Shown: positions 20,142 to 35,216, numbered from the stretch's first letter. The stretch: 46,060 nt of DNA from Pseudomonadota bacterium (GCA_947498315.1 CANMLD010000011.1:1-46060); one strand, 5' to 3'. Numbers and translations: made by a program. The notes: generated from the letters alone by a model not told the origin.

Positions 20142-21248
20142 TCACTTCACTCCAAGTTGCAGGCGGAAGCGGAAGGAGTCGGTCTCATCGGCGAAGCCCG
20201 TGTCGCGTAGCCAGGAGCCATCGACATGAACAGAGAGGTGATCATTGAAGAAGCGCGCGACGGCGCCGACGGTCAGCTCGTGCTCGGTACGCTCGGGCGC
20301 TTCGTTGTTCTCGAGGCGCTTCGTCAATGAGTACCGTGCCGCGACCGTGTAGTCATGGAGGAAGGTATAGTCGACGTTCCCGAAGCCGGCGACGAAGCGG
20401 GTGAAGTCAGGGTCGACGAGGTCCTCGGCCCTGTACAGCGCGCCCAAGCCGATGGAGGCGCCTTCCACTCGCATCAGGACGTCGCCTTCGAGCCGGTACC
20501 CGGTGTCGCGCTCTCCAACTTTCGCCGTCGTGCGATCGACGTGGACGAGGGCCGACAGCGCGCCGCCGATACGGAAGCGACCACCCCTGCGATCTCCTTC
20601 GTCGTAAGGATCGAGCCCATCTTGATGGTATCCGACGCGTGCGGCGATGACGGGCCGGAACTCGGGCGTCTCCTCCGCAAAATCAGAGGGTTGTAGATCA
20701 CCGAAGATACCGAGTGCCCACTCCAGCTCGTCCTTGTCACCGTTATGAAGGAGTACGCCGAGATCGCGCCGGGCCTGAAACCCATCCTCGAGCATGCTCC
20801 GCTCGGCTAACACCAAGCCGAACGCGCTGTTCATGAATTGCCGAAGAAACGGGCGTTTCATCCGCCCCGCTCGAACCTGCAGATGCTTCTTGTAGGCCCT
20901 GACGTTGAGGAAGGCGTTGGCGACCTCGGCGTCGAAGCCACCGAAGTCCATGCCGAGGTCGAGCTCGAGGAGCTTTTTGTAGTCGCCCCTCAAGATGACG
21001 CGCGCTCGAGGCAACTCCACCTGATTGGACTCGGCCTCGCTCTCGTGGGTGTAGCGGACCTGAAGCCGCCCACGAGCCGAAAAGTCGAACGCCGGCTCTT
21101 TTTCCAGCTCGTTTTGACTGGGATTGGGCGGAGGCGTGTCGGCACGCGCCCCACCCAAAGGCGCCACTAGGGTTGCGACGAAGACAATGGCGATGGTTGA
21201 TACGAGTGCGTCATCGCGGCGGGAACGAGCTACGTTGTTGATCTTCAA
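20142..21248 (-). CDS. OprO/OprP-type (phosphate/polyphosphate-selective) porin family protein, TTG start
   Basis: FDFSARGRLQVRYTHESEAESNQVELPRARVILRGDYKKLLELDLGMDFG...LQVRAGRMKRPFLRQFMNSAFGLVLAERSM, multi-strand barrel pattern. Confidence 0.78.
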   Translation of the reverse strand: MKINNVARSRRDDALVSTIAIVFVATLVAPLGGARADTPPPNPSQNELEKEPAFDFSARGRLQVRYTHESEAESNQVELPRARVILRGDYKKLLELDLGMDFGGFDAEVANAFLNVRAYKKHLQVRAGRMKRPFLRQFMNSAFGLVLAERSMLEDGFQARRDLGVLLHNGDKDELEWALGIFGDLQPSDFAEETPEFRPVIAARVGYHQDGLDPYDEGDRRGGRFRIGGALSALVHVDRTTAKVGERDTGYRLEGDVLMRVEGASIGLGALYRAEDLVDPDFTRFVAGFGNVDYTFLHDYTVAARYSLTKRLENNEAPERTEHELTVGAVARFFNDHLSVHVDGSWLRDTGFADETDSFRFRLQLGVK

Positions 21249-22867
21249 TGAGGACTCCGAAGTCGGCGCTCCAGCGCGAGCATTAGGAACAGAGTCACCA
21301 GCAGGGCGGAGATGGCGACGACCCAGGTCGTGCCAGACCTTACCGGCACGAGGGGCGTCGCCTGGACAGTCTGCTCATGAAGTAAGGGCTGTACGTTGGG
21401 CGGGGGCGACCACGCCGCACGGTCACGAGACGCCGGCGCCGCCGAGGACGGCCCAAGCCCATCAGAGCGAGGTGACCACCCGTCGAGCTCGAAGGGCAAA
21501 TCGTCACGACAATCTCGCACGTCGACGAAGAGTCGGCTCCCTTCTGCCGCGTTCTGCCAAAGAAGCGACTTCGAGAGCGTGATCTTGCCCGGTGAGTCGA
21601 GCTTCACCGTCGCCTGGGCTGCGGCGCGACGTGAATGGGCGATGACGCAGTTGGTAGCGGTAGTGAGGCCCCCATCAAAGGCGGAGAGCCCTCGCCCAGA
21701 CTCGAGCAAGAAGGTGCCCTGAACCACCGCGGTCGAGCGCTGGCCCACGCTGACGGCCTTGCCCATCGCCAAACGGAACAGTGAGTTCGTTACGGTGAGG
21801 GTAGAGTCATGCCCCGCGTCGATGCCGTCGTCTCCGAGCGCCTCGAAGATGGACGACGTGACCGTGGCTCGGCTGGCCACGAGATCGAGTCCATCAGAGG
21901 CGAGCTTACGAAACTCCGTGTTCGAGACCTCGATCTCAGCGCGTTCCGCGTGAACGGCGTCTTCCCCTCGCGACTCCTCGAAGAGGCAACTCTCGAACGA
22001 CGCGTTCGAATCGACGACGCTCACGGCGCCATTCAGGTCTTGGCTGCCGGCGTAGCCTCCAGAGCCTCGGACGAAGTGAACGTGCGAGAATCGGCTCCCC
22101 GCCGCCGAGGCCCCGAGGATGGCGACAGTGCCCCACGGTCCCCGACCGAGCGCCGCGATGGTGATGGGCGCGGCGGCTGTCCCCAGCATCTGCAGACGGC
22201 CGTAGGCGAAGATGCCGCGACCGGGAGCGAGCAAGAGCGTCGTGCCGGGCTCGACGACGAGTGACGCGGCGCGTGGGATGACGAGGTCATGGGCCAGAGA
22301 CCATGCGCCCGACGGGAGGCGATACTCCCCTGGCTTCGGCCCCGTTGCCAGATGCGTCGCTCTGACCCGGAGGCTCTCGGGAGGATCGTCCGCGTGGCGC
22401 TCGGGGTCATCGCCGCGGGGGCGTTTCCCGGCTTCGATCTTCACCGTCAAGGGGGCGCCCGTCCCGGGCACGACGAGCGACAACTGCACCTCTCGCGACA
22501 GCTTTCGATCGGAGGCGAGTCGCACCCAGGCGGAGTCCACGGGTGCGACAACGAGGAGCGGCCGATTCGGGAGCGCGACCGGTGGTCCTTCGTAGACATA
22601 CGCCGCGGGGCCAGCAGCACCCTCAGGCCGCCGCGCGAGCGTCACGACAGGGGTGCGGTTCGCGTCGTCGAGCGTCAGATAGAGCACGTCGGCGTCGCCC
22701 GGCTTGTCGCGGCTCGGCACCAAGAAGCGGGTCAGCGCCACCGGCGTGCCACGTTCGACCTCGACTCGGAGGAGAATGGCCACGGTGTCCGCAAGACCCG
22801 GTAACTCGGCGACGCCGACGACCGCGACGGGGACCCCTGCTGAGGCGCAACAGAGCGCAATCGCCAT
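21245..22867 (-). CDS. Secreted right-handed parallel beta-helix protein with C-terminal TM anchor
   Basis: LPSGAWSLAHDLVIPRAASLVVEPGTTLLLAPGRGIFAYGRLQMLGTAAAPITI followed by beta-helix rungs (VTSSIFEALGDDGIDAGHDSTLTVTNSLF); C-terminal hydrophobic segment VVAISALLVTLFLMLALERR. Confidence 0.8.
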   Translation of the reverse strand: MAIALCCASAGVPVAVVGVAELPGLADTVAILLRVEVERGTPVALTRFLVPSRDKPGDADVLYLTLDDANRTPVVTLARRPEGAAGPAAYVYEGPPVALPNRPLLVVAPVDSAWVRLASDRKLSREVQLSLVVPGTGAPLTVKIEAGKRPRGDDPERHADDPPESLRVRATHLATGPKPGEYRLPSGAWSLAHDLVIPRAASLVVEPGTTLLLAPGRGIFAYGRLQMLGTAAAPITIAALGRGPWGTVAILGASAAGSRFSHVHFVRGSGGYAGSQDLNGAVSVVDSNASFESCLFEESRGEDAVHAERAEIEVSNTEFRKLASDGLDLVASRATVTSSIFEALGDDGIDAGHDSTLTVTNSLFRLAMGKAVSVGQRSTAVVQGTFLLESGRGLSAFDGGLTTATNCVIAHSRRAAAQATVKLDSPGKITLSKSLLWQNAAEGSRLFVDVRDCRDDLPFELDGWSPRSDGLGPSSAAPASRDRAAWSPPPNVQPLLHEQTVQATPLVPVRSGTTWVVAISALLVTLFLMLALERRLRSPH

Positions 22868-22881
22868 GGTCAGAAGCGGGC

Positions 22882-23574
22882 TCAGAGTTCGACCTCCTGG
22901 GCGGTGGCGGTCAGGTGGACGTCAGTGACGCCTGGAATGGACCGGATGGCCTGCACGAGCTCCTCAGGTTTGCCTCGAAGCGACGTGAGCCACGTGGATT
23001 CAACCCCGTCGGGACCCATGGCCTGCATGGTTAGCATGACGAGCCGGCGGGTGCTGGCGCCGAGCACGGCGGGGACCTGGGTGGTGGCGGTCGTGCCAGT
23101 GAAGACCACGCGCAACAGGTAGTCGTCACGAGTACGCGTCCCGAACCGGAGCGCGTGGAGTAGCAGGATGACGCTCAGCATCATCACAGTGCCGGTCGCG
23201 GCGGTCACGTAGCGCCCCGTCCCGGCCGCCATCCCGATGGCCAAGGCGAGAAACACGTAGGCGATGTCCTTCGGGTCCTTCACCGCAGTGCGGAAGCGGA
23301 TCAGCGAGAGCGCGCCGAAGACGCCAAAAGCACGCGCAAGCGAGTCGCCGATGACCACCATGACCAGCGTCCCGACCGCAGCCAACATGACGAGGGTCAT
23401 CGCGAAGGACGACGAGTACTGCATGCCGCGATGGGTGGAGCGGTAGGCGATGGCGACCATGATCGACAGGACGGTCGCCACCAGCATACCGGCAGCAGTG
23501 CGCATCGCGGCTTCGACGGCATCGCCAGAGTCGAGTGACAAGGACTCGAGCGAAAATGAGGTCCAGAGTGACAT
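22882..23574 (-). CDS. DUF4956-family membrane protein
   Basis: Hydrophobic N-terminus; GVFGALSLIRFRTAVKDPKDIAYVFLALAIGMAAGTGRY is characteristic. Stop/start TGATG overlap with the upstream VTC gene. Confidence 0.85.
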   Translation of the reverse strand: MSLWTSFSLESLSLDSGDAVEAAMRTAAGMLVATVLSIMVAIAYRSTHRGMQYSSSFAMTLVMLAAVGTLVMVVIGDSLARAFGVFGALSLIRFRTAVKDPKDIAYVFLALAIGMAAGTGRYVTAATGTVMMLSVILLLHALRFGTRTRDDYLLRVVFTGTTATTQVPAVLGASTRRLVMLTMQAMGPDGVESTWLTSLRGKPEELVQAIRSIPGVTDVHLTATAQEVEL

Positions 23575-24494
23575 CAGGGTGAGTTCCGGGGGTCGAGGGA
23601 TGTCGTGGCAGCCAATGAGAGCCGAGATGAGTTGGCCACAGGCGCATGGTAGAGCAACATCGTGTCTGGAAAGCCGAGGCCCTCCTGAACCACGCCGGCG
23701 CCGGGGCCGTTGCGGAAGAAGGGGGCGATGCTCTCGAGCACGTGACAGTATTTCGAGATCGAGTCCGCTTCGAGAGCGAAACCCGACACCAGCGCGGCCA
23801 TGAAGCCGGGCATGGCAGTCGTGAACTTCAACTCGAGGACGACCACGCCGCCGAGCACCGGCCTCAATGCCTGACGAGTCAGAATGTGGGCCGCACCGGC
23901 CCCCCTAACATCGGTATCGAAGGTGATGCGCGGGTTTCGGGGTCCTTCGCCCGCATACGCAAGCCGTTCGTATGCGATGAGCGCGACGGGGCGCAGGCCG
24001 GGGCAAAAGAGCATCGTCTCGAGAGCAGGCTCGACAGCGCCAGGGTGCCACGCTGGCCGCGTGCCCCCTTCCAGCTCGCTGCGGAGCCAATCCAGAAGGA
24101 CAACGCCGTTCTCCCGCCAAGGAGCAGTTGGCGGGAGGGCGATGCGGCTCTTCAGAATGAAGGGCCCTTCTTTGCGCTTGAGCTCGAGGAATGCCTGATA
24201 GCCGGAGATCCCGTAGGTGCGCAGTCGGAGCTTGGCGCGCGTCTGCAGACCGGCAAGCTTGCCGTGATACGCATCGAGGCCGGGCGTGTCGAAGTAGAGG
24301 GACCGAACGTGGTAAGCGCCGCCAGGGGTGCCCGGAACGGGAGGGCGCAGCCATGACGAACACACTTCGCCCGCTTCGCCGGCCTCACCATTGGCATCGA
24401 CGCGCAAAAAATCGTCGAGGCTCCGGATGAGCTGTCGAGCACGGGACGGGTTGAGACGGTACTTCAGCTCGTATCGGGCTGGAAAACGCTGCAC
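23574..24494 (-). CDS. VTC-domain protein (polyphosphate-polymerase type), GTG start
   Basis: FPARYELKYRLNPSRARQLI, YHVRSLYFDTPGLDAYHGKLAGLQTRAKLRLRTYG, FLELKRKEGPFILKSR, ARITFDTDVR, VLELKFTTAMPGF-like pattern typical of the VTC domain. Confidence 0.88.
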   Translation of the reverse strand: MQRFPARYELKYRLNPSRARQLIRSLDDFLRVDANGEAGEAGEVCSSWLRPPVPGTPGGAYHVRSLYFDTPGLDAYHGKLAGLQTRAKLRLRTYGISGYQAFLELKRKEGPFILKSRIALPPTAPWRENGVVLLDWLRSELEGGTRPAWHPGAVEPALETMLFCPGLRPVALIAYERLAYAGEGPRNPRITFDTDVRGAGAAHILTRQALRPVLGGVVVLELKFTTAMPGFMAALVSGFALEADSISKYCHVLESIAPFFRNGPGAGVVQEGLGFPDTMLLYHAPVANSSRLSLAATTSLDPRNSP

Positions 24495-25194: not shown

Positions 25195-26586
25195 TCAGCG
25201 ACTCATGATGCGTTGCTGAGCGGAGATGGGCTGACTAACGAAGGTCAGGAACTCGAGCTGCTCGACGCGATTCCACAGAACCACGATGCTGAGGAGCAGC
25301 GTCAGCAGGGTCGCTCCGAGGTAGCCCCAGCCGTAGAGGTCAGGGCTGTCGACCGTGACCCATGAGAAGAGCAAGTTGAGGCCAAAGAACAGGATCGACA
25401 GCCACATCACTGACTTGCGGAAGTCGAAGTAGAGCAGCACGACCATCAAGACCAGCAGGATGACGTGGAACACGGCCGCGACGGCGGCGATTCGGAAGAG
25501 ACCGAGGTGAGCCTGATCGATGTCGAAGGTGTCGAGGACGCTCGGCAAGAGCACCAACACGAGGATGGTGATGATCCCCTGGTAGATGACCACGACGCCG
25601 AGCGACTTCTTGAGGGCGCTCACGAGATCGGCGCGCCGCGCCTCGATCTTCGAGAGGGGATCCTTCGCGAGGATTCCACCGAAGTACGCTTTGTACTTCT
25701 CGTAGAACTCCGTCTCGATTCGCACGAGGAAGAGCGCGAGCGCCGGCACGATCGTGATGTACGCGAAGAACATGGCGGAGTCGTAAGGGAAGTGCGTGTA
25801 GAAGAGACTCTCCACGCGAATGCCCGACGGCCCAAACCAGAAAACCATCTTGTCCACCCAGATCGCGGCTGAGTAAAAGAAGCCGGCGACGGCGAGGTCC
25901 GGGTACATCCGAAACGACGACATGAAGTCCAGATTGAAGGCCGTATCGTTCGGAAACTCCTCGATGATGCGCCAGATGAGCCAGAAACACAGCACCGTCT
26001 GGCCGGCGAGGAAGCCGCTCATGGTGCCCGTGGTCCCGTAGATGCCGCTCAGCCACCAACCGAGAACGAAGCTTACGACGTAGCCGGCGACGAAGCCGAG
26101 AACGAGAGCGTTGTAGTCCTTGGCCGCCGTCAGGTAGATCATGGCCATCCAGATGACCGAAATGGTCACGTAGAGGCCGGTCGCAGCGATCTTGAACGCG
26201 AACGGCAGCTCGCAGAAGGCGAGGAACGCGGATGCCGTCAGCGCTTGGACGGGCACCAGGAAGATGAGGACGCCGACGAAGGACGGGATGATCGCGCTCG
26301 CTTCGTGAGCGTAGAGTCGATCCGCGACGAAACGCGTCACGGGCAATTGCACGACCCCGGTGGTGATGAGCGAGAACGCGTAGCAATACACGACGGAGAT
26401 CGTGAAGAGCGCGACGCCCTCTTCCTGCAGCGACGGCAGCGCGAACACGCTCAGCGACGCGAGGCAGAGGATCGATAGCAGCCAAGGCCCAGCGAAGATG
26501 ACCGCCGAGTAGATGTACAGCTGAAGCCACTCGGTGAAGGTCTTTCGAGTGACGATCTCGCGGAGGCGGAAGCCTATGCCTGCCAT
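25195..26586 (-). CDS. pelG: Pel exopolysaccharide transporter-family membrane protein PelG
   Basis: MAGIGFRLREIVTRKTFTEWLQLYIYSAVIFAGPWLLSILCLASL..., VVQLPVTRFVADRLY, FYSAAIWVDKMVFWFGPSG..., long multi-TM protein. ATG at 26586. Confidence 0.92.
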   Translation of the reverse strand: MAGIGFRLREIVTRKTFTEWLQLYIYSAVIFAGPWLLSILCLASLSVFALPSLQEEGVALFTISVVYCYAFSLITTGVVQLPVTRFVADRLYAHEASAIIPSFVGVLIFLVPVQALTASAFLAFCELPFAFKIAATGLYVTISVIWMAMIYLTAAKDYNALVLGFVAGYVVSFVLGWWLSGIYGTTGTMSGFLAGQTVLCFWLIWRIIEEFPNDTAFNLDFMSSFRMYPDLAVAGFFYSAAIWVDKMVFWFGPSGIRVESLFYTHFPYDSAMFFAYITIVPALALFLVRIETEFYEKYKAYFGGILAKDPLSKIEARRADLVSALKKSLGVVVIYQGIITILVLVLLPSVLDTFDIDQAHLGLFRIAAVAAVFHVILLVLMVVLLYFDFRKSVMWLSILFFGLNLLFSWVTVDSPDLYGWGYLGATLLTLLLSIVVLWNRVEQLEFLTFVSQPISAQQRIMSR

Positions 26587-26587
26587 G

Positions 26588-28153
26588 TCAAAGCTCCCCG
26601 TCGAGACCGTGGTCCGAGTCCTGCGCAGAATGAGGCGGCACCCCGGCACCGCCGCCGTTGTCGCGAAGCGCGATCATGGAGCGGTACACGTCCTTGTACC
26701 GGTTGATGACCGATTGGCGCTGGTAATGTCGGAAAGCCCGCTCTCGTCCGGCCTGAGCCATACGTCGATGCAGGTTCGGGTCCTGGAGAATCTGAAGGAC
26801 CGCATTGCCGGTCTCTTGTGGCGAGTTGACGTTCGTGACGAGCCCTGCGGAGCCCAAGCGGCGGTCTTCGTCGTTCGCTCCAAAGAGCAGCTCCGAGCAG
26901 GCGCCGACATTGGTGGCGACGCACGGAACTCCCACCGCCATGGCCTCGATGATGACGAAGGGCTGGGCCTCTGAGACGCTCGTCAGCACCACGACGTCGA
27001 GCTTCGGGTAGTACTCGCTCATGTCGACATTGCCCATGAAGCGCAGCCGATCGCCAAGCTGGAGGAGCTCCGCGAGTGACCGACACTCTTCGTAGTAGTC
27101 GACGTCTTCGTCGGGCGTCCCGAGGATGTAGAACGTTGCCGACGGCATCGAGTCCACCACGATTCGGGCGGCACGAATGTAGGTCTTGACGTCCTTGATC
27201 GGCGAGATTCGGCCCACGAAGGCGATGTGTTGGCCCAGCTCGCGCGGCTTGCCGGCAGCCGCCTCAGCAAGCGCCGCGTAGCGCGCGACCTCAATGCCGT
27301 TGGAGATAATCTCGCACTTCTTAGGCGGAGCACCCTGCATTACCTGCGTCTTCTGGTTGCCTGAGTAGAGCGTGATTATCTTCTCGGACTCGTTGTACGC
27401 GATCTGGGAGAGCATCTTGAACTTGCCCATCCAGAGGTTCTGCAGGAGCCCTAGCTCTCGACGCGGCACGTAGTCGACAACGACCTCGTTGTAGATGTAG
27501 GCGGCCTGCGCGATCTCGATCATGCGCTCTTTGGTGTAGATGCCGTGCTCAGTCAACACGAGCGGCGAGCCGTAACGACGATGGCCGAGTGCACCGAGCA
27601 GCCCCGCGTAACCAGTACAGGTCGCATGATAGACCTTGGCTTCTGGGATGGGCGCGTAGATCAACTGGAACAACGGCAACATCAAGAAGCGGCAGGTCCA
27701 GAAATAGTCGAGGTAGCTGAGGTTGGGGAAGTGGCGGCGATAGACGCCAACCATGATGTCCCAAAAACGACGGGAATACAGGATGTCGTATGGCGTTATC
27801 GCAGGGTCTTTGCCCGACGTCAGCGCCTCAGCGATGCGGTGAAAGGTCGACGCGTCACCGTTCTCGATGGCGTGGACGAACTCCTCGACCTCACGCCAAG
27901 CAGAGCGGGAGAACGGTCGCTTGGTGCCCTTCACCACGACCGGGTCGAGCAGATAGATCTCGTTGAACTGCCTCACGTTCTCGGGCAGCCGGTACTCCAT
28001 CTTCTGGACCTGGTGCTTCGAGACCCCGACGTAGATGATCGAGAACGAGAGATCTGGAAGCGACTTGATGAGGTGGTGCGTCCACGTGGAGACGCCACCC
28101 ACCACGTAGGGGTAGGATCCTTCGAGTACCAAGCAAACGTCGGTCAGCGCCAT
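26588..28153 (-). CDS. pelF: GT4 family glycosyltransferase PelF
   Basis: MALTDVCLVLEGSYPYVVGGVSTWTHHLIKSLPDLSFSIIYVG, VYHATCTGYAGLLG, LTEHGIYTKERMIEI, VGRISPIKDVKTYIRAA, SEAQPFVIIEAMAVGVPCVATNVG. Confidence 0.93.
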   Translation of the reverse strand: MALTDVCLVLEGSYPYVVGGVSTWTHHLIKSLPDLSFSIIYVGVSKHQVQKMEYRLPENVRQFNEIYLLDPVVVKGTKRPFSRSAWREVEEFVHAIENGDASTFHRIAEALTSGKDPAITPYDILYSRRFWDIMVGVYRRHFPNLSYLDYFWTCRFLMLPLFQLIYAPIPEAKVYHATCTGYAGLLGALGHRRYGSPLVLTEHGIYTKERMIEIAQAAYIYNEVVVDYVPRRELGLLQNLWMGKFKMLSQIAYNESEKIITLYSGNQKTQVMQGAPPKKCEIISNGIEVARYAALAEAAAGKPRELGQHIAFVGRISPIKDVKTYIRAARIVVDSMPSATFYILGTPDEDVDYYEECRSLAELLQLGDRLRFMGNVDMSEYYPKLDVVVLTSVSEAQPFVIIEAMAVGVPCVATNVGACSELLFGANDEDRRLGSAGLVTNVNSPQETGNAVLQILQDPNLHRRMAQAGRERAFRHYQRQSVINRYKDVYRSMIALRDNGGGAGVPPHSAQDSDHGLDGEL

Positions 28154-28172
28154 CGGTTCATCCTCGGGCCCG

Positions 28173-29252
28173 TCAGCTCGGCCGCGCCATGTCCCAGAAC
28201 GCCAGGACGTCATTGAGCGACGGCGGTAGCTCGCCGCGGCTCTTCAACTCCTCGAGGACGGTCCCGAGCCGGAGCAGATCGCGCTTGTCATAATAACAAT
28301 GGGCCAGCCCGACCCACGCCTGGGTGAGGGTCGGGTTCATCTCGACGACCTGCGCATACGCCTGAAGGGCGACGTCCGTCTGTCGAGCACGGAGCCGTAT
28401 GTCGGCCAGGTCGAGGAGCACGTCATCGCGGTCGGGCAGCCGCGAGAGAACCTCCTCGCACAAGGAGGACGCCTCACGAAGGAAGTACTGCTCCACCGAC
28501 GGGTCGAGGAGACCGCTCAAGATGTAGTCCTTCTCCTGCCGTGCAAGCTCGATGCGGAGGTCGAGGTTGTCAGGGTCGATTTCGAGACGCCGACGCGACC
28601 GGATAATGCCGTCCGAAAGCGACTTCTCGATGCGCGAGAGCTGGCCCGCTACGAAGAACTGGCTCTCGGGGTCGATGTCTTTCAAGCACTCGCGAAGGAC
28701 CTTCACGGCCATCTCTGGCTTGAGCCTGGCGATTGAGAAGATGGCGCCACGCTTGAGCTCTGGGTCGCCCGACTTGATGACGTCGATGAGGGGAGCCACC
28801 TTGCCAAGCCGATCGAGGTCGGCGTGAAGCTCGCCGTCCGAGATGAGCGACATGCCACCCAGTTCACTGCGGACTTCGGGCTCGTAGTGAATGTACTCCT
28901 CGAAGCGACCGACGATACCCGAGCCAGCGAGGTTCCAACGGCGCCGCCAATGGACCGCGGCATACGCGGCAGAGAGACCAACGAGCCCATAGACCGGTAG
29001 GGCGAGGACGAGGACGAACCCGATGACGGACCAGTTCTTCTCGTCTGGGTAGCGAAAGTCCCAAGGCCCCCATAAGCCGTACGTGAGCATCGTCGCCGCC
29101 CCGAGGTGGAACGCGAAGGCGAGGAGCATGTTCACGAACGCGCTCGACTCGAGCTCACTGACCATGGCTAGTACGGACAATGCTTCGAGCACGACGATGA
29201 TGACGTACGTAACGAGGCCCGCGAAGATTGGGCGCCGGCGGGGTCCAGCCAT
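28173..29252 (-). CDS. pelE: PelE-like membrane protein with HEAT/TPR-like repeats
   Basis: N-terminal TMs, then TPR-like DVLLDLADIRLRARQTDVALQAYAQVVEMNPTLTQAWVGLAHCYYDK. Position between pelD and pelF as in pel operons; TGATG overlap with pelD. Confidence 0.72.
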   Translation of the reverse strand: MAGPRRRPIFAGLVTYVIIVVLEALSVLAMVSELESSAFVNMLLAFAFHLGAATMLTYGLWGPWDFRYPDEKNWSVIGFVLVLALPVYGLVGLSAAYAAVHWRRRWNLAGSGIVGRFEEYIHYEPEVRSELGGMSLISDGELHADLDRLGKVAPLIDVIKSGDPELKRGAIFSIARLKPEMAVKVLRECLKDIDPESQFFVAGQLSRIEKSLSDGIIRSRRRLEIDPDNLDLRIELARQEKDYILSGLLDPSVEQYFLREASSLCEEVLSRLPDRDDVLLDLADIRLRARQTDVALQAYAQVVEMNPTLTQAWVGLAHCYYDKRDLLRLGTVLEELKSRGELPPSLNDVLAFWDMARPS

Positions 29253-30673
29253 CAGCCGTAGAGCTCGAAACGTTCGGCAGCCAGGGTCAGCTCTTCGCGG
29301 GAGTCGCCGTGGTCGCCTGTGGTGCCAACGCCGAATCGCAGCGAGAGCTCGGCGCCCTTCGGGACGTCCTGAAGCACGTCCTGTTGGAACTGTGCCAGAA
29401 GACGAGACGCCAGGATCCTCGAACCGTCACCACGCGTTTCGGGGAGGACGAGGGCGAAGGTATCCAGTGTCTTCCAACGCGTCACGAGATCGACGGCCCG
29501 AAGGTTTCGAAGGAGCATGCGGGCGACCCGACGGAGAAAGACCGACTGCTTACCGCGAGGGACTCGCTCCAAGTTCACGATCTTCACGACCAGAAGCGAC
29601 GTCGGCACGTTGTATCGACGCCAACGGCCGAGCTCCTCTTCCAGACGGCGGACCGCATAGCCGTAGCGATAGGTGCCGGTCTGTTCGTCGGCGGGGTCGC
29701 GTTCGCGTACGCGCTCGTACCGCTGGGCGGACCCGAGGACCTGACTGCCCCACTCGCTGATACCCGTTAGGTTACGAACGGTGCCGGCGTTCAGACCCGA
29801 CAGCGGCAGTGCGAGCACGGCGATGGCGGCATGGACGCGACGTTGGCCATTCTGATCCTCGGTAAAGAGTGGCGCCGCCATGACGACGTCACTCCCAGTC
29901 GCGTCGGAGACGTCGAGGACCGTGACGACCTCACCGTCAGCGACCTTCGCCAGGACCGGCTGCCCCAGCGATAAGCGCCGTGGGAACTCGTCGGGCCGAG
30001 AGAAGCCGCGATCATGGCCCATTTCCCAGCCATCGACGCCGCGGATGTAGACCGCGCTCTTCTCGGCGCCCACGAAGCGATGCACCATCTCGAGGATCGC
30101 CGGGAGCGCCTCTTCTTCGCTGAGTCGCTGAACGGATGCGGCGGCCTCGTAGAAGGCGCCCGTGGTGCCGGTGCTCGACGCGATCCGCTCCTGCAGATCC
30201 TCGTTGTAGTCGCGGACCACCCTGGTCTCGGTAGACAGGACGTCGACGTCACGTTTCAGGACGCGAAGTCGCTCGAGCAACTGGGTGATTTCGTCTTCGG
30301 AGACCTGCCGAATCTCGCCGATGATCGTTCCGAGAACGATGAGCAAGTAGGGGACAGTCATGAGCTCGAGGTCGAGCAGAGCAGCAGCGGAGTCGAAGGA
30401 TTGGGGATGCGCCATCGCCTTGGCGGCGATGAGGATGCCGGCCCCGATGACCCCAGCGATGGACCCGTCCGTTGTCCCGTAGCGCGCCGCGATGAAGAGC
30501 GTAACCACGAAGAATGGGTGCAGTTGTGCATCGGGCCAGGCGAATTGGTCGAACGTGAAGCTCCAACTCACCACGCATAGGATCGCGTAACCGGCTATGA
30601 TCTCGAGCAACGCGTCGAGACGGCGACGAGTCGCCATCGTTTGGCGCTCATCGAGTACGGCAGTGGTATCCAC
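29252..30673 (-). CDS. pelD: PelD-like c-di-GMP receptor candidate: N-terminal TMs, GAF, degenerate GGDEF (GTG start)
   Basis: TM block LLEIIAGYAILCVVSWSF...; GAF-like middle; C-terminal RRYNVPTSLLVVKIVNLE...LRNLRAVDLVTRWKTLDTFALVLPET, with GGDEF replaced and RAVD just upstream. GTG at 30673 overlaps the upstream TAG. Confidence 0.83.
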   Translation of the reverse strand: MDTTAVLDERQTMATRRRLDALLEIIAGYAILCVVSWSFTFDQFAWPDAQLHPFFVVTLFIAARYGTTDGSIAGVIGAGILIAAKAMAHPQSFDSAAALLDLELMTVPYLLIVLGTIIGEIRQVSEDEITQLLERLRVLKRDVDVLSTETRVVRDYNEDLQERIASSTGTTGAFYEAAASVQRLSEEEALPAILEMVHRFVGAEKSAVYIRGVDGWEMGHDRGFSRPDEFPRRLSLGQPVLAKVADGEVVTVLDVSDATGSDVVMAAPLFTEDQNGQRRVHAAIAVLALPLSGLNAGTVRNLTGISEWGSQVLGSAQRYERVRERDPADEQTGTYRYGYAVRRLEEELGRWRRYNVPTSLLVVKIVNLERVPRGKQSVFLRRVARMLLRNLRAVDLVTRWKTLDTFALVLPETRGDGSRILASRLLAQFQQDVLQDVPKGAELSLRFGVGTTGDHGDSREELTLAAERFELYG

Positions 30674-32754
30674 TAGAACGCCCCCGTGTAAGAGATGGTG
30701 AAGAGGTTCTCCTGGAATATCCGAGTGGCGTCCCCAACCAGGGTGTCGGTTCGCTGGTACCCAGCATTCATCGAGTGCTGCGGGTGGAAGCGAACCCGAA
30801 GTTCGGCGCCATAGGCGAGCTGGAACGCTTCGTCCTCGAAGACCCACAGCGGACGCACCGTGAGCGAGTACCGGAACTGCCAGTTGACGTCGTGGTAGAG
30901 CACCAGAGGCAACGCCACGGTCTGATAGAGGTCCGGCGCGAAGTAGGGGATACGACCCCCGGCCTCGTCCGAGCTGGTTTGGAACCAAGTACCCCCGTAC
31001 TCCAAAAGGAGATCGAGCGACAGCGGATCGTCGATGAGTCGAACGCCCGGCGTCACGAGCCACTCTACGCCGTTGTTGCGGATTCGGTCGGTCGTGAGGG
31101 GATCGGTGTGGATGAAACGGCCATACTTGACCTCGAGCTCGAGGAGGAAGCGGGAGACCTCGACGTCCCAGCCAGCGCCGACGTCATAGCGGGCAGTGTC
31201 GAAGAGGATGGCGTCTAACGTAGATTCATCAGGCGAACGGGCAAGCCAGAGACGCAGGTTCCACGGAGCGACCGTAGAACCGTGCGCGTACCGCCAGCCG
31301 AGGCGGATGTCCGCGAAGGTCGGGATGTCGTTATCGTAGGCCGAGACGCCAGCGTTGATCTCGAAGACCGACCTTGGGCTGCTCTTGAGGTCGACTCCGA
31401 CCCCGCCACGGTGTGCATTGAAACTAGCATCCGGCGCAAGGTCGATTCGAGGCCGTCCTTCGTAATGAGACCAGCCGTAGTTGGCGCCCCATCGCAGCCA
31501 GTCGAGCGCTTGATGGTCAGCGCCGAGCGTGAGGTGGTGCCGTGTCAGCCCGGTAGAGTCCTGCAAGTACTCGTAAGCGGGAGTGATTCGCGGTCCGACT
31601 TCACCTGCCGCGAGATCGCGCTGAAGCTCCAATTCATCGTTAGGGGAAGTGGCACCGATGAGGCCGTCGTAGAGGCGCAGTGCCTCACGGTGTTGGCTGC
31701 GCGACGGGTAGGTGTCAGCGAGAAGACGCTGCGCATCCATGTTCGTTGGGGCCGTGCCCAGGAAGGCCTCGAGCTCAGCGATGGCAACGTCGACGTCGCC
31801 ATCGTCGCTGGCATAACGCGCCAAGCTGAGGCGACGCTTCAGGTTGTTCGGTTCACGCGCCGCGGCTGGCGCTAGAGTCGCGACAGCAGCGGCCGATTCC
31901 CCGCGACTCGCTTGCAGCAACGCGAGCCGGTCGCGGGCGTCGCCTTCGCTGGAGGGCCGCGCGGCCAGTCGCCCGAGGAGGGCCTCAGCGCGCACCGTGT
32001 CTCCGATCGCGCTCGATGCCTCGATCGACTTCCACATGAGCACGCTATCGTCAGGAGAGAGCTCGACGGCGCGCGCAAAGGCCGCCGCCGCTTCATCGTC
32101 CATCTTACGGCGGGTGTAGGCGTCTCCGAGCCGCTCGAAGGCCTTGAAGTCGCTCGTGCGGAGCTCCGTGACTCGCTTCCACGCACGAACCGAGTCTACA
32201 GGGTGCCCGAGCCCATCTCGGAGCGTCGCGACTTGCTCCCAGCGGTCGACGTCGTCGGGCGCTTGGACCAGGTAGCGGTCGAGCGCCGCTGCCGATTCCG
32301 AGGGATCGCCTGCGGCGAGATGGGCGCTCGCGAGCTCGAGCAGTCGGTCAGCTGTGTCGCCGGTCTGCTGGCAGATGGCATCGAGCACGGAAGCGTAGTC
32401 GCGGTATCGCCCGAGCTTGCCGTAGATTATGGCGAGCCGTTCGAGTACGGCAAGGTCCCTCCGGACGAGCGAGATGGGTTCCGCGGCCAACAAGGCGCGG
32501 AGGTAGTCACCCCCATCGAGCCGCACGTCCACGAGCAGAAGTCGCGCGTCCACGTCGTCACCGCACAGGCGTACGTAACCCTCGAGAAGGGCCGCCGCAT
32601 CGTCGAGACGACCTTCAGAGCGCAGGGTTGCGGCCCTTGCCGGTTTGTCGCCTATCGGCAGCGGAGTGCGCCCCGCCGGTGGCCGCTGCAGTGCCGAGGC
32701 AGAGCCGGCACCGAGCAGGCAGACGAGCGCCAGATGCCGAAGTCCCAGAGACAC
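30673..32754 (-). CDS. PelB-like TPR protein with C-terminal outer-membrane beta-barrel
   Basis: Signal peptide, tandem TPR-like helices (AFERLGDAYTRRKMDDEAAAAFARAVELSPDD), then amphipathic barrel region ending ENLFTISYTGAF (terminal aromatic). GTG start. Confidence 0.72.
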   Translation of the reverse strand: MSLGLRHLALVCLLGAGSASALQRPPAGRTPLPIGDKPARAATLRSEGRLDDAAALLEGYVRLCGDDVDARLLLVDVRLDGGDYLRALLAAEPISLVRRDLAVLERLAIIYGKLGRYRDYASVLDAICQQTGDTADRLLELASAHLAAGDPSESAAALDRYLVQAPDDVDRWEQVATLRDGLGHPVDSVRAWKRVTELRTSDFKAFERLGDAYTRRKMDDEAAAAFARAVELSPDDSVLMWKSIEASSAIGDTVRAEALLGRLAARPSSEGDARDRLALLQASRGESAAAVATLAPAAAREPNNLKRRLSLARYASDDGDVDVAIAELEAFLGTAPTNMDAQRLLADTYPSRSQHREALRLYDGLIGATSPNDELELQRDLAAGEVGPRITPAYEYLQDSTGLTRHHLTLGADHQALDWLRWGANYGWSHYEGRPRIDLAPDASFNAHRGGVGVDLKSSPRSVFEINAGVSAYDNDIPTFADIRLGWRYAHGSTVAPWNLRLWLARSPDESTLDAILFDTARYDVGAGWDVEVSRFLLELEVKYGRFIHTDPLTTDRIRNNGVEWLVTPGVRLIDDPLSLDLLLEYGGTWFQTSSDEAGGRIPYFAPDLYQTVALPLVLYHDVNWQFRYSLTVRPLWVFEDEAFQLAYGAELRVRFHPQHSMNAGYQRTDTLVGDATRIFQENLFTISYTGAF

Positions 32755-32771
32755 TCAGTTGTTTCCTGTGC

Positions 32772-35216
32772 TTACTGCGCGCTCTGCTGCGAGCGCATCG
32801 AATCGCGAACACGAACGACGACGAGGACCAAGAGCAACGCACCCAGGACGCTAAACATCAGGAAGACGGTGTTGGAGTCGTTCGCGGGTTCTGAACCGCC
32901 GGCGACAGCGACTGTGGTAGAGGCCTGCGGCGGATCTTTCGGGGTGTTGTCAGACGCCGCGGCCACGGGGGCGACTCCGCTACCTTCGAGCGAGGCGCCA
33001 TCAGCCCGTCGTGCGGGCTCGTAGACAGGAAGCTGCGGAACGAGGTCGCCGTTTTTGACTTGGATGACTTCGCCGGGCGCCTCTTGGACCACTTCGACTG
33101 CGCCGTTCGGCCCAACGAGGACTGCAGAGCCGGCGAGCTGGTCGACTTTACGCTCGACCCAGAGGTACTCGGAAGCCTGCATGTAAGCGGGCTCACCGCG
33201 TCCGCCTGAGACGACGAGCAGATTGCGTCGGGCGTTCCACGGCGACTTGCCGAGGAAGATCCACCCGGCTTCAGCGCGGAACGTGTCGCCGGTGTAAGTG
33301 CGGATGTTGTCGGCGGTCGCCGACTCCGCGAACATGCTCTCAGGGAGACCCTTGAGCACGGCGGCGTTCGCACGGATGGTCGCGTAGTCGCCAACGACCA
33401 TGAGGTCGCGGTCGGCGAGGTCGGCGTCGGCGAGGCTGCCAACGCGCCTTACCCAGGGGTGCACCCACTGCGCCCTGGGGACGCCGTCGCGGCCCATGAT
33501 GCGCGGGACCTTCTTTCCGAGGTACGCGGCAACGTTCGCGACCACGGTGAGCGACCCGTCCGTCGGCTCGTCAGCGACGCCGAACATCAGGCCGTTCAGG
33601 TTTGGCTCTTTACCAGCGACCCAGGGATAGGAGCGCAGCGACGTCGTCGGCTGGTCGTTCAGCGTGTATGCCACGAACGACGTATTGAAGAGGGTGACCC
33701 AGGCCATCTCGGGGAAGTTGTATCGGCAGTCCGGGTCCCCGATGTCGAGGAAGAACTCGAGGTCGACGACGAGGGTGCGGGCACCGAGGAGCTTCTCTGG
33801 GATGACGACATCGGCTTCGAGTCGACGGGCCGTGCGCGGGGAGAGGCGGACCGAGCGCACGGGCTCGTCGTTGATCTTGACGAGCAGGGACGAGGTCTGC
33901 GGCACGAGCAGCTCGGAGTGGCTCATGATGAGGCGGACGAAAGACGGCGCCTGAACGCGGCCAACGTACGGGTTCGGGAACGCGACACGCGCGAAGTGGT
34001 GGAACTTGCCGCGCTGCGTGGAATCGGAGGAGCCGAGGTCGGCGAGCGTCATGGTGACGCTGCCCAGCTTGTCGTTCAGAGCGGCCGCTGGAATCTCCGG
34101 CTTGGTCGCGAACGTGACGGCGCGGACCGAAGGTTGTCCCATCTTCGGGTCCGTCTTCCACTCGTCCGAGAGCTTCGGGAGGGAGAGCGCCGTGACCGCT
34201 TTGGCTAGGGCCGCGTCATCGACACCGGTGACCACGAGCGCGAGCCGGCTGGGGTTGAATGGGTTGGGCGACTCGAAGAGGTGGCCGAGACTCGGATCCC
34301 CCGCCCGGAACGACTCCACGAGCTCGAGGCCCGCGGCGGCGAACTTGTTCACGAAGTCGGTCGGCCCGACGATGATGACGTTATGGCGCGCGAGCTCGTC
34401 GCGGAGGTCCGCCGTGATGTCGCCTACCTGTCGAACTTCGAGGCCACCGGATTGGAAGCGGGTATCGGCGCCGATACGGGCCGAGACGACACCGACACCG
34501 GTGAGAACGTCCGCCGATGGCGCCGTCGGAATCGCGATGATGGCGTGCGTCTGCTTCTCTTTGCCGTCCGAATAGAAGAACTCGGGGCGAAGGAAGCTCT
34601 GGGGGAACTTCGCGAGGTCGAGCGACACGGGCTTCTCGCGGTAGCGGATGATCAGACGGCTCTCCTTCTCGATCGTGATCCACAGCGCGGGGCTGTGAAC
34701 GTCGTCGCAGAGCTCGAGGTCTGAACGCATTTTTGCCGTGATATCGACCACGTTACTGTCACCGAGCTTCAGATACTCAGTCGGGATGGTCCAGACGACC
34801 TTGCCTTGCTGGGCGTTGTCGACGCTGAGGAACACGCTGTTGATGGCGTTGCCGTTGACCGATGCGGTCATGGACGACAGGCGCTCGATGAGGACCGGTG
34901 AGTGCGAGAAGTGCAGCTCGAGGACGGCCTCTCGGGTCAGTTCCCACTGCTCGGGTAGCGGCACCCAGTGCTCGACGTGAACGAGCACGCCACGGTAGGT
35001 CTTGCTGACGTCACCGGCGAGGCTCACGAATGCGGGAGGCGCGTCGGATGCGGGAGGCGCGTCGGATGCGATCCCGGCAGTGGGGTCGAGTTCGAGGGTA
35101 CCGACGGGCACCGGCGCGCTGGGCGCCTCCTCGGCTGCTGCAGGGGCCTCCTGAGAAGAGCTCATTCGGGTGGTCAAGGTACCCAAAGCGAGAACCAGGA
35201 GCGAAAGCCGCTTCAT
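32772..35216 (-). CDS. BcsB-like cellulose synthase regulatory subunit, periplasmic with C-terminal TM
   Basis: VHVEHWVPLPEQWELTREAVLELHFSHSPVLIERLSSMTASVNGNAINSVFL, VDLEFFLDIGDPDCRYNFPEMAWVTLFNTSF, PFNPSRLALVVTG; C-terminal TVFLMFSVLGALLLVLVVVRVRD. Confidence 0.83.
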   Translation of the reverse strand: MKRLSLLVLALGTLTTRMSSSQEAPAAAEEAPSAPVPVGTLELDPTAGIASDAPPASDAPPAFVSLAGDVSKTYRGVLVHVEHWVPLPEQWELTREAVLELHFSHSPVLIERLSSMTASVNGNAINSVFLSVDNAQQGKVVWTIPTEYLKLGDSNVVDITAKMRSDLELCDDVHSPALWITIEKESRLIIRYREKPVSLDLAKFPQSFLRPEFFYSDGKEKQTHAIIAIPTAPSADVLTGVGVVSARIGADTRFQSGGLEVRQVGDITADLRDELARHNVIIVGPTDFVNKFAAAGLELVESFRAGDPSLGHLFESPNPFNPSRLALVVTGVDDAALAKAVTALSLPKLSDEWKTDPKMGQPSVRAVTFATKPEIPAAALNDKLGSVTMTLADLGSSDSTQRGKFHHFARVAFPNPYVGRVQAPSFVRLIMSHSELLVPQTSSLLVKINDEPVRSVRLSPRTARRLEADVVIPEKLLGARTLVVDLEFFLDIGDPDCRYNFPEMAWVTLFNTSFVAYTLNDQPTTSLRSYPWVAGKEPNLNGLMFGVADEPTDGSLTVVANVAAYLGKKVPRIMGRDGVPRAQWVHPWVRRVGSLADADLADRDLMVVGDYATIRANAAVLKGLPESMFAESATADNIRTYTGDTFRAEAGWIFLGKSPWNARRNLLVVSGGRGEPAYMQASEYLWVERKVDQLAGSAVLVGPNGAVEVVQEAPGEVIQVKNGDLVPQLPVYEPARRADGASLEGSGVAPVAAASDNTPKDPPQASTTVAVAGGSEPANDSNTVFLMFSVLGALLLVLVVVRVRDSMRSQQSAQ
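35030..35070 (-). repeat. 18-bp tandem repeat (atgcgggaggcgcgtcgg x2 plus partial) in the 5' part of the bcsB-like gene
   Basis: Direct reading; encodes SDAPPASDAPPA in the mature N-terminus. Confidence 0.9.

Follow-up and report, generated by a model that had tools for sequence, protein, structure and literature searches.

What is a cellulose-type BcsB subunit doing at the head of an operon whose other genes resemble those for the Pel polysaccharide? In the biosynthesis of Pel, a sticky biofilm polymer, PelF polymerizes UDP-GalNAc, the chain is exported by PelDEFG, and PelA deacetylates and trims the polymer. A first-pass annotation of the window, the whole 46,060-nucleotide stretch that we analyzed (contig C11 of G000, a Myxococcota MAG that is 91% complete), had described such an operon and proposed that BcsB stands in for PelA and PelC, possibly with a different polymer as the product. 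On the evidence set out below, we consider it rather probable that the operon is a c-di-GMP-gated, Pel-type synthesis and export locus that includes BcsB, that is, a variant of Pel and not a wholly new system. All six genes were recovered on the minus strand between 35216 and 25195, in the order bcsB-pelB-pelD-pelE-pelF-pelG (Table 1), and their close packing was confirmed, with intervals from bcsB to pelG of 17, -1, -1, 19, and 1 nt after adjustment of the starts. Those of pelD (GTG, 30673), pelF (ATG, 28153), and pelG (ATG, 26586) were chosen by homologue length and are likely to be the true ones. No bcsA, pelA, or pelC lies within the six-gene operon.

TABLE 1 Genes of the bcsB-pel operon and those following pelG, in window coordinates
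Gene	Coordinates	Strand	Product and features
bcsB-like	32772..35216	-	814 aa; signal region, CBD-FD-CBD-FD layout, C-terminal transmembrane helix; PF03170, 1.4e-39
pelB-like	30673..32754	-	693 aa; signal peptide, ~11 TPRs, C-terminal beta-barrel (~14-16 strands)
pelD-like	29252..30673	-	473 aa, GTG start at 30673; membrane segments, GAF, degenerate GGDEF, I-site RAVD
pelE-like	28173..29252	-	359 aa; N-terminal hydrophobic segments, HEAT and TPR
pelF	26588..28153	-	GT4 glycosyltransferase; EX7E motif EAQPFVIIE; NF038011 equivalog
pelG	25195..26586	-	Predicted Pel transporter; PF16933 over the full profile
VTC (polyphosphate-polymerase-like)	23574..24494	-	PF09359, 5.8e-30; 3' of pelG; possible accessory gene
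DUF4956 (MgtC-like)	22882..23574	-	Membrane protein; PF16316, 3.6e-15; possible accessory gene
Secreted beta-helix protein	21245..22867	-	PF13229, 3.1e-06; in line with the VTC and DUF4956 genes

The core of the operon is recognizably that of a Pel system. PelF scores 484.5 bits against its equivalog profile (cut-off, 100; E = 4.3e-145) and PelG scores 442.5 bits against PF16933 (cut-off, 29; E = 2.5e-132), and genome-wide each is present as a single copy, as judged for PelF by profile search. PelD, whose homologues begin at the pelB stop, combines its GAF domain with a degenerate GGDEF domain that the GGDEF profile still matches at 2.2e-06. In both of the operon families defined below (f1, which includes the window, and f3), the RxxD I-site is kept and the GGDEF signature is lost, the pattern that would be expected of a c-di-GMP receptor devoid of cyclase activity. 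Likewise, a phmmer search with Azospirillum PelE matches the window's PelE at 4.4e-15, and HEAT/TPR repeats follow its hydrophobic segments. The PelB-like protein matches TPR profiles and OMP_b-brl (7.8e-05), and its model shows 22 helices followed by barrel strands, the TPRs beginning directly past the signal region. A fold search with this model was dominated by eukaryotic and designed TPR proteins; among the matches listed, the one from the outer membrane was BcsC (9b8a), which aligned along almost the entire length. By profile and model, the protein is a porin composed of TPRs and a barrel, of a kind that sequence alone cannot separate into PelB, BcsC, and PgaA.

The three genes that follow pelG in Table 1 accompany the operon only in G000 and G234. 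VTC and DUF4956 genes belong to the accessory set reported beside Gram-positive pel operons (PMC7112168; PMC12345266). The window also encodes a 368-aa protein (20142-21248) that overlaps the beta-helix gene by 4 nt and has no match in Pfam or NCBIfam.

That a BcsB-like gene heads the pelB-D-E-F-G genes was upheld by the profiles of all six products and, for BcsB, by predicted structure as well. Besides PF03170, a PDB profile search with the BcsB alignment retrieved BcsB chains only (best E, 1.9e-08). AlphaFold predicts, with moderate confidence (pLDDT, 63.8), a pair of sandwich domains, a pair of alpha/beta domains, and a helix at the C terminus, and the best 22 Foldseek matches to this model are all BcsB chains (top E, 1e-33). 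The 32772-35216 product is therefore retrieved as BcsB both by profile and by structure, and misidentification is ruled out by this agreement. A genome-wide profile search found no other BcsB in G000, and the protein is 34 to 90% identical to other pel-linked BcsBs versus 24 to 30% to those of Myxococcota cellulose systems. Further relatives were also encountered. A plasmid search gave weak matches only; the match from Leptolinea sits in a WbaP-type polysaccharide cluster. A 3.4-kb contig (L079, G032:C16) carries a second BcsB, which shares 82% identity with the one encoded in this bin's operon and reflects either strain mixture or duplication. In G183, a divergent BcsB (L092:7832-10138, contig C138) occurs in addition to a separate cellulose-type BcsB, and no synthase was recognized among its five scanned neighbor genes. 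In G085, a distant BcsB-like protein is encoded directly 3' of a non-BcsA GT2 glycosyltransferase (L095:5732-9967), possibly another BcsB partnership.

The arrangement is not peculiar to one assembly. We sampled 290 Myxococcota genomes, 22 of which encode PelG. The order bcsB-pelB-pelD-pelE-pelF-pelG was found in four of the four sampled f1 genomes (G000, G234, G165, and G204) and again in a further genome (L076). With the operon recurring in four bins besides that of the window, an assembly artefact was ruled out, and the repetition of the gene order in these bins goes far beyond chance. The second family, f3, comprises eight genomes with the order bcsB-DUF2194-pelD-pelE-pelF-pelG, although some of the contigs break inside the operon. 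Thus, the comparison of neighborhoods across Myxococcota that the first-pass annotation had proposed reveals a bcsB-pel arrangement conserved in two families. A scan of genome contigs with narrow peptide patterns retrieved only relatives of f1 and f3. A tree of PelF plus PelG joins f1 and f3 in a single clade (100/100), to which none of the remaining Myxococcota, proteobacterial, or fusobacterial sequences belongs, and the BcsB tree is consistent with this topology (81/91). The simplest reading is that BcsB joined the Pel system by one ancient recruitment. One might still argue that the essential path consists of PelDEFG, the deacetylase, and PelB alone, which would make this ordinary Pel with BcsB as a dispensable addition, given that ten pelG-bearing Myxococcota genomes, as well as a Cetobacterium pel operon with the same type of deacetylase, do without BcsB. 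However, BcsB is retained in 12 of the 12 genomes of its clade, as the first gene wherever the contig shows its position, and more than 100 of its positions are invariant between f1 and f3, which makes its dispensability distinctly unlikely in our judgment.

The reported absence of BcsA proved to extend beyond the window. TIGR03030 stayed below its cut-off throughout G000, ruling out a BcsA elsewhere in this genome, and did so in all 12 f1 and f3 genomes, whereas two cellulose-type controls scored 874 and 865 bits. Conceivably, BcsB could serve a different, unlinked GT2 synthase and share with the pel genes nothing but transcription. Contig C59 of G000 does carry a generic GT2 (125 bits to CelA), BcsB-like proteins can accompany synthases other than BcsA, as in G085, and the Bacillus subtilis genome exceeds the PF03170 cut-off while one control genome alone passes that for BcsA. 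Yet comparable GT2 matches are absent from G165 and from all eight f3 genomes, and bcsB nonetheless remains linked to pelDEFG in f1 and f3 alike, at approximately 35% identity. We regard such a division of labor as very improbable.

The supposed lack of PelA, in contrast, does not hold for the genome as a whole. On contig C6, apart from the operon, lies the sole DUF2194 (PF09960) gene of G000 (C6:43120), followed on the same strand by its only GH114 gene (C6:44789; 5.8e-27). A DUF2194 profile of ten sequences matches PDB entry 9ZAU at 1.2e-93, which is the Pel deacetylase PelADA of Bacillus cereus (PMC13254593), and the seven catalytic residues of PelADA (D262, D263, H350, H354, R458, H488, and D491) are conserved, seven of seven, in the ten sequences (offset, 25). 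By homology, DUF2194 is a PelADA-type deacetylase family, and the predicted PelA of G000 is split and displaced, as in Gram-positive bacteria. Along with this predicted deacetylase and hydrolase side by side on C6, the genome encodes PelF, PelG, PelD, PelE, and a TPR porin. In f3, a second DUF2194 gene adjoins a TPR-barrel porin whose barrel aligns with that of the window's PelB along its length (hhalign probability, 99.5). Porin and deacetylase thus swap places between two loci in f1 and f3 and are therefore tied to one pathway. Furthermore, DUF2194 exceeds its cut-off in 12 of the 290 Myxococcota genomes, exactly the 12 f1 and f3 genomes that have PelG and the divergent BcsB, and in the other ten PelG genomes BcsB and DUF2194 both stay below cut-off. 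This coincidence would arise by chance with a probability of about 1.5e-6 (1 in C(22,12)) if the labels were free, but the 12 genomes represent two related families and are not independent. From this co-occurrence in two related families, we infer that the C6 pair may act jointly with the operon in f1. Because deacetylase and hydrolase are encoded in the genome, and the deacetylase lies inside the operon itself in f3, BcsB does not replace PelA, contrary to what had been suggested.

PelC is a different matter. With a profile of four sequences, PelC was detected in none of the 12 BcsB-type genomes, in line with the first-pass annotation. The absence is weak evidence, however, because seven of the eight other pelG-bearing Myxococcota genomes searched also gave no match.

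Several other pel loci came to light in the course of these comparisons. A Myxococcota pel type lacking BcsB (f2; L046 to L049) falls in the Azospirillum clade; its layout, seen best in L047, has a separate deacetylase, a GH114 gene, and two TPR proteins 5' of pelDEFG. The locus of Cetobacterium somerae (L111:4199-13433) reads GH114-pelD-DUF2194-pelE-pelF-pelG, with no porin or BcsB annotated. The hosts of L111 and L112 are Fusobacteriota, which are diderm, and in Fusobacterium two secreted-looking proteins encoded 3' of pelG could be parts of the export machinery. In the control genome of Thermotoga maritima, PelG, DUF2194, and GH114 are present and BcsB is not; these profile matches suggest a PelADA-type Pel system there.

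Does the presence of BcsB imply a different polymer, as had been considered? Its two carbohydrate-binding-type domains might have been recruited to guide a different glycan made by a PelF of changed specificity. The separate position of the PelF/PelG clade relative to the other sampled Pel clades would fit this idea, as would the statement that divergent pel operons may yield different polymers (PMC7112194). Against it, PelF lies far above its equivalog cut-off (484 versus 100 bits), next to its GH114 gene the genome still encodes a PelADA-type deacetylase whose catalytic residues are all retained, and GH114-type genes also adjoin pel operons in Paraburkholderia, Azospirillum, and Cetobacterium. 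We consider a changed polymer unlikely: as far as gene content can predict the product, a Pel-like GalNAc/GalN polymer is indicated by the synthase as well as by the deacetylase and the hydrolase.

For a Pel-like product, the following route can be envisaged. PelF would polymerize UDP-GalNAc, a donor assumed from its family, and PelD, PelE, and PelG would form an inner-membrane complex that is switched on by c-di-GMP at the PelD I-site. With its C-terminal helix as anchor, BcsB would serve as a scaffold in the periplasm where the chain leaves this complex. In E. coli, a groove between CBD-1 and FD-1 allows the BcsB semicircle to tether BcsC by its first TPR (PMC11379886), and the BcsB of the operon may likewise deliver the Pel chain to the PelB-like porin at its TPR solenoid. 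The DUF2194 protein would partially deacetylate the chain and the GH114 hydrolase would trim it, both being encoded on another contig. The handover from BcsB to PelB, the identity of the polymer, and the cooperation of the two loci are all inferred. More tentatively, a BcsB crown might have replaced both the PelC ring and the contact between PelA and PelB, in which case Pel and cellulose export would share an interchangeable, synthase-independent periplasmic module; this is a possibility to which we give somewhat less than even weight.

How the inner-membrane Pel synthase of Gram-negative bacteria is coupled to deacetylation and export has been stated to be unclear (PMC13254593), and the need of Pel for a PelC ring, when the BcsC and PgaA porins have none, has been called puzzling (PMC12141448). 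Both questions become accessible to genetic and structural tests in a naturally occurring Pel system that has BcsB and in which PelC was not detected. Such a system would further demonstrate that in Gram-negative bacteria BcsB is not bound to cellulose or BcsA, which matters for annotation wherever BcsB is taken as a sign of cellulose production. In their accessible parts, surveys of Pel operons report rearranged and split operons as well as Gram-positive types, and we found no BcsB in a pel operon there. Likewise, we found no report of the BcsB-pel combination in the accessible literature, and an earlier description elsewhere is possible. The claim of an undescribed system therefore survives in part, in that the combination has no match in searchable papers, but what it designates is a variant of Pel and no separate system. 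This variant is real, conserved, and apparently new; the half of the claim that denied it a PelA is wrong at the genome level.

Compared with known systems, the operon resembles pelABCDEFG of Pseudomonas aeruginosa in the shared order of pelD, pelE, pelF, and pelG at its 3' end, in a PelD with RxxD and a degenerate GGDEF, and in its TPR-barrel porin. It differs in having bcsB at its head, no fused PelA, no detected PelC, and a much shorter porin (693 versus 1193 aa; PMC12141448). With the Gram-positive pelDEADAFG operon of Bacillus cereus, of which a similar version occurs in Fusobacteriota, it shares the DUF2194 deacetylase (PelADA), a separate hydrolase, and, in the window's genus, the VTC and DUF4956 genes beside the operon; in contrast, its host is diderm and has a porin and BcsB, and the f1 deacetylase lies outside the operon. 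From the fusobacterial pel systems it is further set apart by its separate PelF/PelG clade. The ydaJKLMN operon of B. subtilis is comparable in that this genome, too, encodes a PF03170 protein. YdaN is the BcsB-like protein and YdaM the GT2; the operon has a GT2 synthase and a monoderm host, and is not known to include pelDEFG. Finally, the operon has in common with the cellulose system BcsAB-BcsC the BcsB fold with its membrane anchor and a TPR-barrel porin, whereas it encodes neither BcsA nor a GT2, and its synthase is the GT4 enzyme PelF.
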